Under the pieces are notes generated by a model that had not been told where the DNA came from, did no database searches, and saw nothing but the letters and a program-made list of their open reading frames with translations. This document shows, one piece after another, positions 17,230-19,403 of a stretch of 64,000 nt of DNA (within the stretch, counting starts at the first letter, position 1; the number at the start of each line of letters is the position of its first letter). Source of the DNA: Deltaproteobacteria bacterium (lineage in GTDB: Bacteria > Desulfobacterota > Deferrimicrobia > Deferrimicrobiales > Deferrimicrobiaceae); NCBI GenBank assembly GCA_021815305.1, contig JAKAHC010000006.1, forward strand, positions 1-64,000, in the 5' to 3' direction. A program made the translations under genes and the position numbers.

Positions 17230-17508
17230 GTGGCGTTTACCGTCAAGTATCACCCCGACGTCAAGAGCAACGACCTTCCGCCGATCAACGCGAAGATGCG
17301 GGAGCGCATCAAGCGGGCGATCGAAACCCGCTTGATGACCGCACCCCAGGAATACGGCCTTCCGCTGAGGAAGAATCTCGGGGGGTACTGGAAGCTCCGG
17401 GTAGGAGATTACCGCGTCGTCTTCAAGGTCGAAGGGGAAATCGTCTACGTCCTCGCCATCCGTCACCGGAAACATGTCTACGAAGACGTAACGGCGCGAA
17501 TAAAATAA
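17230..17508 (+). CDS. RelE/ParE-family toxin
   Basis: A 92-residue RelE-fold toxin with a GTG start. Typical features are VKYHPDVKSNDLPPINAKMR in the first helix region, LRKNLGGYWKLRVGDYRVVF (strand with Arg and Tyr used in mRNA cleavage by RelE proteins) and VYVLAIRHRKHVYED at the end. It pairs with the ribbon-helix-helix antitoxin upstream. The closing KLRxGDYRVxF and IxHRKxVYE pattern is closest to RelE rather than ParE. Confidence 0.87.
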   Translation: MAFTVKYHPDVKSNDLPPINAKMRERIKRAIETRLMTAPQEYGLPLRKNLGGYWKLRVGDYRVVFKVEGEIVYVLAIRHRKHVYEDVTARIK

Positions 17509-17887: not shown

Positions 17888-18847
17888 TCAGGGGAGGGGC
17901 GCCTGGAGCGCCGCCTCCTCCGCCGCCTTGGGCTGGGTGGGCAGCCCCAGCCGGATCCAGGCGTCGAACCCGCCGTGGATCACGCCGACCCGGTCGTAGC
18001 CCCTTCGCATGAGGATCCGCGCCAAACTGGCGCTGGTGGCCTCTCCGGGTCAGGAACAGTAGAAGATCAGGTCGCGGTCCCGCGGAAGGTGGTGCGCCCG
18101 CCGGTGAAACGAGGCGGGCCGCACGCGCACGGCCCCGGCCACCATCCGGTCGGAAGAGGCGTACTCCTCGTCCTGGCGCAGGTCGAGGACGAGGGGATCT
18201 TCCCCCGCCTCCATCTTGCGGTGCACCTCCTCCGGCGCGAGGCGGAACGCGGCGTACCGCTTCACCAGCCAGTACCTGTAGATGGCCCGCCACGCCACCG
18301 TGCCGGCGAGCCCCGCAAGGAGCAGCCACCCCAGCGCCCCCTGGAATCCCCGCGCCGACTCCGCGATCCGTTCCCCGAAAACGTATCCCAGGAGCACCCC
18401 GGACCCTGCCCAAAGAAGCGCGCCGGCGGAATCGAGGAGAAGGAAGGAGGGAAACGGCATCGCCGAGGCGCCGGCGAGCGGGGGGGTGATCGTGTTCACG
18501 CCGGGAAGGAATTTCGCGAAAAGGATCGCGGTCCCCCTCCTTCGGCGGAACCCCAGCTCGGACCGCTCCACGCAGGCGTCGGGGTTGAACGAGACGCGGC
18601 AGAGGTGGCCGAGCACGCGCCTCCCCCCCCAACGACCGATGTGGTACCAAGTCCCGTCCGCCAGGAGCGCCCCCGCGACCGCGGCTCCCAGGATCAGGGG
18701 GAGGGCGGATTCCCGCGTGGAAACGTACGCCCCGGCGATCATCAGTACGGGGAACGCCGGCACCGGAAGCCCGGCGTTCTCCAGGAACGTGAAGAGGAAC
18801 ACCGCCGCCACGCCGTACCGGGCGACGAAGGCAACGAAATCCCCCAT
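17888..18847 (-). CDS. DedA-rhodanese fusion, candidate selenoprotein (in-frame TGA)
   Basis: A DedA/VTT membrane domain (about residues 1-200: FLENAGLPVPAFPVL, LFAKFLPGVNTITPPLAGAS) fused to a C-terminal rhodanese domain (about 210-319). The first stop, TGA at 18052-18050 (codon 266), falls in FYCS-TGA-PGEATSA. Family members as I recall them read YCSCPNEATSA, so TGA replaces the second Cys. Translation continues in frame for 53 codons with a normal rhodanese end (GVIHGGFDAWIRLGLPT) to TGA at 17890-17888. A stem-loop with a G at the start of its loop lies 17-31 bases past the TGA. I infer selenocysteine; a nonsense mutation or sequencing error is the alternative. Confidence 0.75.
18011..18043 (-). 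promoter_or_regulatory. SECIS-like stem-loop
   Basis: Counting from the base after the in-frame TGA, GCGCCA (17-22) and TGGCGC (26-31) form a perfect 6-bp stem with loop GTT; GAGG (7-10) and CCTC (36-39) can extend it below an internal loop. A short upper stem with a G in the first two loop positions, roughly 16-37 bases after the UGA, is the general bacterial SECIS pattern read by SelB. Confidence 0.6.
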
Positions 18848-18850
18848 CGC

Positions 18851-19279
18851 TCACCTTCCCTTCGCCGTCTCTCCCCGGAGCACCGAGCAGGTGGAAACCG
18901 CCCTGGCCACGAGCCGGCCGCCATCGTCGGCGACGTCGCACTCCACCATCCCCACCGTCCTGCCCCGGTGGACCACCTTCGCCTTCGCGACGAGGATCCC
19001 CTCGAAGACGGGGCGCAGGTAGTTGATCTTGAGCTCCAGGGTGGTGAACGTTTCACCGTCCTCCAGCGTGGAGGCGAACGCCATCCCCATCGCGGAATCC
19101 GCCAGGGTGCACAGGATCCCGCCGTGCACGGTACCCATCGGGTTGTGGTGCTTCGTTCCGGCCTTCATTTCGAAGAGGGACTCCCCCTTTTCGCAGGAGA
19201 GCATCCGGAAACCGACGAGCGCCGCGGCGGGCGGCATAAGATCTCCGCTCTTGATCCGGCGGGTAAGGGAAGGGTCCAC
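18851..19279 (-). CDS. PaaI-family hotdog thioesterase
   Basis: A 142-residue hotdog thioesterase, paralogous to the one at 4744-5172 and of identical length when the GTG at 19279 is used. That GTG is preceded by GGAGG with five-base spacing. The core HHNPMGTVHGGILCTLADSA and ELKINYLRPVFEG match the paralogue. The gene ends three bases before the DedA-rhodanese start, so the two are probably co-transcribed, which hints at a shared role at the membrane or in lipid metabolism. Substrate unknown. Confidence 0.87.
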   Translation of the reverse strand: MDPSLTRRIKSGDLMPPAAALVGFRMLSCEKGESLFEMKAGTKHHNPMGTVHGGILCTLADSAMGMAFASTLEDGETFTTLELKINYLRPVFEGILVAKAKVVHRGRTVGMVECDVADDGGRLVARAVSTCSVLRGETAKGR

Positions 19280-19403
19280 GGTTTCCTCCGAACGAGTTGG
19301 TTCGCGCCCTTGGGATGCGTTGCGGGGGGGATCTGATGCCGGATTCCCGCCTGGAGCGCCGGAAATCAAGGAGACGGATTCCCCGCGACGCGGCCGGAAA
19401 ACC

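Follow-up and report, generated by a model that had tools for sequence, protein, structure and literature searches.

Selenoproteins of the rhodanese type are known in several forms, of which form 3, with its CxU motif, corresponds to NF041203 (rhodanese_LYCAU; PMC13188914). Fusions of DedA membrane proteins with rhodaneses have also been noted, and the link between the two was described as unclear (PMC10127716). Here we analyse a gene on the reverse strand of a 64-kb window (the whole stretch of DNA under study) at positions 17888..18847. From its sequence and that of its relatives, this is very probably a genuine selenoprotein gene, predicted to encode a DedA domain joined to a rhodanese with a Cys-Ser-Sec site, in which a hairpin would direct the reading of UGA266 as selenocysteine. 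Many selenoprotein families are already known from similar evidence.

The gene starts with the ATG at 18847 and ends with the TGA stop at 17890-17888. Between them runs one continuous frame, broken by a TGA at 18052-18050 (residue 266, in YCS-U-PGEATSA). Under the standard code the open reading frame (ORF) stops at 265 aa, and reading through the TGA yields a complete protein of 319 aa. The first-pass annotation had described this in-frame TGA with 53 more codons behind it and had expected standard annotation to lose the C-terminal part; both points are borne out by the sequence. Two domains were recognized on the reverse strand: a VTT/DedA membrane domain at residues 34-155 (18383..18748; PF09335, 50.1 bits, cut-off 33.9) and a rhodanese domain at residues 205-298 (17954..18235; PF00581, 42.9 bits, gathering cut-off 22.2). 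The latter match spans the TGA, in agreement with the earlier proposal that the rhodanese continues past this codon. Rhodaneses have the consensus active-site loop CRxGxxS. The loop of the window protein, C-S-U-P-G-E-A-T-S, is not this canonical loop but a variant of it, and membership in PF00581 stands, the score being above the cut-off. When the whole 64-kb window was scanned for frames that are bridged by a TGA and show coding usage on either side of it, 18052-18050 was the single candidate inside a gene, and the others, at 18853 and 27680, resemble junctions of adjacent genes.

A hotdog thioesterase gene (18851..19369, reverse strand) lies upstream in the same orientation and ends 3 bp before the ATG of the fusion gene. 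No neighbouring gene is constant among the compared genomes, in which recombinases, a PPDK-like gene, CorA and a thioesterase vary; the context therefore points to no substrate. The hotdog thioesterase is described as a neighbour only. Elsewhere in the window, a ParE-type toxin ORF (PF05016) is found at 17230-17508 on the forward strand, with an antitoxin-like ORF immediately upstream.

The structure of the protein was modelled with AlphaFold using an alignment of 15 rows, from which plasmid-encoded rows were left out (mean pLDDT 80.6, pTM 0.60). The C-terminal domain of the model forms a full rhodanese fold, matching structure 3gk5 with a Z score of 16.0 and 1.6 Å over 100 residues. Further matches include persulfide dioxygenase-rhodanese fusions and CoA-persulfide reductases, a likeness of fold that alone implies no function; all matches of this search cover the rhodanese half, and none the DedA half. 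Cys264 (18056..18058, reverse strand) comes after strand 260-263, where rhodaneses have their catalytic cysteine, and the loop that leads into helix 267-281 holds residue 266. The segment joining membrane and rhodanese domains is rich in K/R in 20/20 fusions, and this juxtamembrane excess suggests, by the positive-inside rule, that the rhodanese domain resides on the cytoplasmic side.

Considering the site alone, the most likely mechanism is that a persulfide on Cys264 is resolved by Sec266. More specifically, Cys264, the usual rhodanese nucleophile, would load sulfane sulfur as a persulfide, and Sec266 would attack that sulfur centre, whereby sulfide would be released or the sulfur handed on. 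This would leave behind a Cys264-Sec266 selenenylsulfide to be opened by a thiol reductant. The gene product may thus act as a membrane-attached persulfide reductase or a fast sulfurtransferase at the cytoplasmic membrane face, with the DedA half serving as anchor and possibly as carrier of the substrate. It is also possible, if rather unlikely, that the protein is a selenoprotein whose CxU site serves as a thiol/selenol redox relay or in metal or metalloid detoxification and does not handle sulfane sulfur. The departure of CSUPGEATS from CRxGxxS would fit such a role, as would the UxU sites of some relatives and the presence of the chromate-resistance rhodanese ChrE among the closest curated neighbours, and most predicted selenoproteins are functionally uncharacterized (PMC13188914). 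Against it, the fold is that of sulfurtransferases, as is the placement of Cys264, and we retain resolution of a persulfide by Sec266 as the preferred mechanism.

Homologues were then compared at the TGA column, as the first-pass annotation had proposed. In the same family, the fusion is full-length in seven genomes and frameshifted in an eighth (L036), with TGA in the column in 8/8; in three further same-family genomes the contigs stop short of the TGA site, which makes them not readable there. Other fusions of the phylum have TGA (four) or TGT (three); in fusions from proteobacterial plasmids the codon is TGC or TGT. Altogether, alignment A3 places TGA in 12 fusions, with the frameshifted L036 as an extra, and Cys in eight. 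Cys264 and residue 266 are both invariant in the fusions of this alignment, as Cys or Sec. A search of genome contigs with the window protein returned, in contrast, only ordinary rhodaneses with a YCKTSGRA loop.

These comparisons bear on the reading of the TGA as a true stop, according to which a 265-aa DedA protein, just the ORF given by the standard code, would end in a truncated rhodanese stub followed by decaying sequence. We regard this as very improbable. The residues past the TGA are needed for the full rhodanese fold. Homologues that truly stop at this point had been named beforehand as the observation that would count against a selenoprotein; none of the homologues found terminates at the TGA site, and they run through it with TGA or Cys. 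For the window gene and seven orthologues from the same family, eight sequences in all, mean pN/pS was 0.487 in the DedA part, 0.442 in the rhodanese before the TGA and 0.433 after it, with only the short C-terminal tail looser (0.784 in the same eight sequences). By this measure the codons past the TGA behave as translated, constrained sequence.

TGA in the same column was also found in 14 solo rhodaneses, in two of which TGA also replaces the first Cys, and a simple look at hydrophobicity indicates a signal-peptide-like segment in 12/14 of these solo relatives. L046 (G032:C24) and L048 (G065:C368) are solo rhodaneses of this UxU type, in which each of the two active-site positions is a TGA. 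L048 and L049 extend for 442 residues beyond Sec through a region rich in CxxCH-like motifs, which may be a fused multiheme cytochrome. The source genome itself has a second TGA rhodanese (L024, G000:C11:120560-120895, reverse strand) with the site YCS-U-LQEATSA, a SECIS-like stem and a signal-peptide-like N-terminus; it scores 134.1 bits against NF041203 and passes the cut-off of that model. A sequencing or assembly error over a real TGC or TGT codon, which the Cys of other homologues at this column might suggest, has a negligible probability, since the identical TGA recurs in independently assembled orthologues from several genera, as well as in solo relatives from across the phylum.

In a tree of the full-length fusions, built without an outgroup, the Sec and Cys labels require three changes and the Cys forms are nested among Sec forms. 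The Cys fusion L066 (G164:C15) has an intact stem and shares 75% identity with the Sec fusion L065 (G213:C103) across 271 residues. The retained stem together with this identity suggests that L066 is a candidate for a recent Sec-to-Cys change; such changes are rare in bacteria (PMC13188914).

The hairpin expected of a selenocysteine codon follows the TGA at 18019..18033 (reverse strand). Its core can be drawn as GCGCC-AGTTT-GGCGC or with 6 bp and a GTT loop, and is backed by folding, conservation and covariation. The first-pass annotation had reported a stem GCGCCA/TGGCGC with loop GTT that resembles bacterial SECIS elements in having a G in its loop, and this stem indeed begins at the 17th base after the TGA. 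The published bSECIS model allows a loop of 3-9 nt, a stem of 4-16 bp, a spacing of 16-37 nt and an energy of at most -7.5 kcal/mol, and needs a G within the first two loop positions (PMC13188914). The hairpin lies within all of these bounds, with a loop of 3 or 5 nt, a stem of 6 or 5 bp, a spacing of 21-22 nt and an energy of -8.7 kcal/mol when folded alone; the loop G (18027; G26) is invariant. An extension of the stem by GAGG/CCTC had also been proposed: it is formed by the window sequence and the two relatives nearest to it, and is absent in the other orthologues. We therefore rejected it as a conserved part of the SECIS element, only the core of 5-6 bp being conserved across orthologues.

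Synonymous recoding of the sequence shows that hairpins are common by chance: a hairpin of at least 6 bp arises anywhere past the TGA in 15-34% of recodings, and a stem in the exact register in about 1%. Accordingly, we place the weight on conservation and not on the single sequence. The register of the hairpin is constant across the aligned TGA sequences, and RNAalifold, run unguided, predicts the same 5-bp stem. Across 26 distinct sequences, 98.5% of the cells are paired and both sides have changed in 11 cells; one pair alternates between C-G (15) and U-A (10), and another between G-C and C-G. The observed covariation score is reached by 0/500 shuffles, and pairing drops to 20-55% in controls with slid partners. 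In the Cys sequences (n=8, including L066 with its kept stem), the same columns are 72.5% paired. The C-G/U-A switch involves the third bases of Ser and Ala codons and is thus not dictated by the protein sequence. Where the same residue is compared, synonymous codon identity is 0.94 in the stem versus 0.55-0.58 elsewhere. One TGA fusion, in genome G034, has a stem that breaks 2/5 consensus pairs, and an alternative hairpin is possible there.

For the codon to be used in this way, SelB and tRNA-Sec would have to insert selenocysteine at UGA266, guided by the hairpin that lies 16 nt downstream. The source genome (2.77 Mb, 97% complete) was searched family by family for selA, selB, selC and selD, a check that had been suggested at the outset, and SelA, SelB, SelD and tRNA-Sec were all found: selA at 538.7 bits, selB at 301.9 bits (above cut-off), selD above cut-off, and tRNA-Sec at 74.1 bits with anticodon TCA (UCA). 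The selD gene has an in-frame TGA of its own in SSCAG-U-ASK, and SelD is probably a selenoprotein too (L010, about 1501-1560; G000:C5:107630-108406). Among the 12 other searched genomes carrying TGA fusions, selB was present in 11; the exception is G034, 85% complete, in which no selB was found at the threshold used. A frame that goes on beyond the interrupting TGA could also result from UGA decoded as another amino acid such as Trp, by general recoding or leaky readthrough, which is exceedingly improbable given that homologues without the TGA have Cys, the usual counterpart of Sec, in the aligned column, that the SECIS hairpin and the complete Sec machinery are present, and that TGA terminates both this gene and its upstream neighbour. 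A general change of the genetic code was rejected on this last ground. The prediction that 17888..18847 encodes a selenoprotein is therefore strongly supported.

The DedA half was compared with the residues described for DedA undecaprenyl phosphate (UndP) flippases, Glu39, Asp51, Arg130 and Arg136 (PMC10127716; YghB numbering), the positions being transferred through DedA paralogues of the same genome and not from YghB itself. Glu23, acidic at the first reentrant tip, matches Glu39, and Asp51 has no acidic equivalent in the window protein. Arg130 corresponds to Lys112, invariant in 20/20 fusions, and Arg136 to Asn118 (region of Lys112 and Asn118 at about 18514-18494 of the window), with other non-basic residues at this position in the remaining fusions, so that the second Arg is missing in 20/20. 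Loss of this second phosphate-binding Arg suggests another function for this branch of DedA, and makes a canonical UndP flippase doubtful for it. We think it improbable that a sulfur or selenium species has replaced lipid phosphate as the substrate and is passed directly to the Cys-x-Sec site at the cytoplasmic face. If so, one chain would unite a transporter and a selenoenzyme, serving to take up chalcogens or dispose of persulfides.

Among known systems, the window protein resembles NF041203 in its CxU at the rhodanese active site, and the solo members found here share the same SECIS register. It differs in being a C-terminal fusion to DedA, while NF041203 describes a solo domain. It has the CxU motif (YCSU) but scores 91.1 bits in full and 93.4 bits for the rhodanese part alone, below the cut-off of 115 bits, and is therefore a relative of NF041203 and not a member. 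As a result, annotation based on this model would probably truncate the window protein at residue 265. The Cys-type DedA/GlpE fusions (Xanthomonas sacchari WP_043095768.1; Cupriavidus) have the same domain order and a CxC(P) site; they carry Cys in place of Sec, share about 31-34% identity with the window protein and have poorly paired SECIS columns. NF045694 TsoB (rhodanese/DsbD fusion-like) also joins a rhodanese to a membrane protein and is a listed selenoprotein (PMC13188914), but with another membrane domain, a UxxxxU motif and a profile of 572 positions, against which the window protein reaches 29.9 bits (cut-off 805). With the COG0586 DedA UndP flippases (UptA, YghB/YqjA) it has in common PF09335 and the acidic first reentrant tip (Glu23), and differs from them in lacking equivalents of Asp51 and Arg136 and in having Lys112 for Arg130. 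The literature matches listed and NCBIfam contained no DedA/VTT or DedA-rhodanese selenoprotein, an absence that is no proof of such a protein being unreported. The first-pass annotation had called the thiol/selenol centre unusual; this holds for the DedA fusion, which is new, and not for the site, CxU rhodanese selenoproteins being already catalogued (PMC13188914, NF041203). The close Sec/Cys pairs, up to the 75% identity of L065 and L066, offer a natural experiment on what selenium contributes to a sulfur-transfer centre. The novelty thus lies in the DedA-fusion architecture and not in the Cys-x-Sec sulfur-transfer site, and the rhodanese selenoproteins gain a membrane-anchored form.
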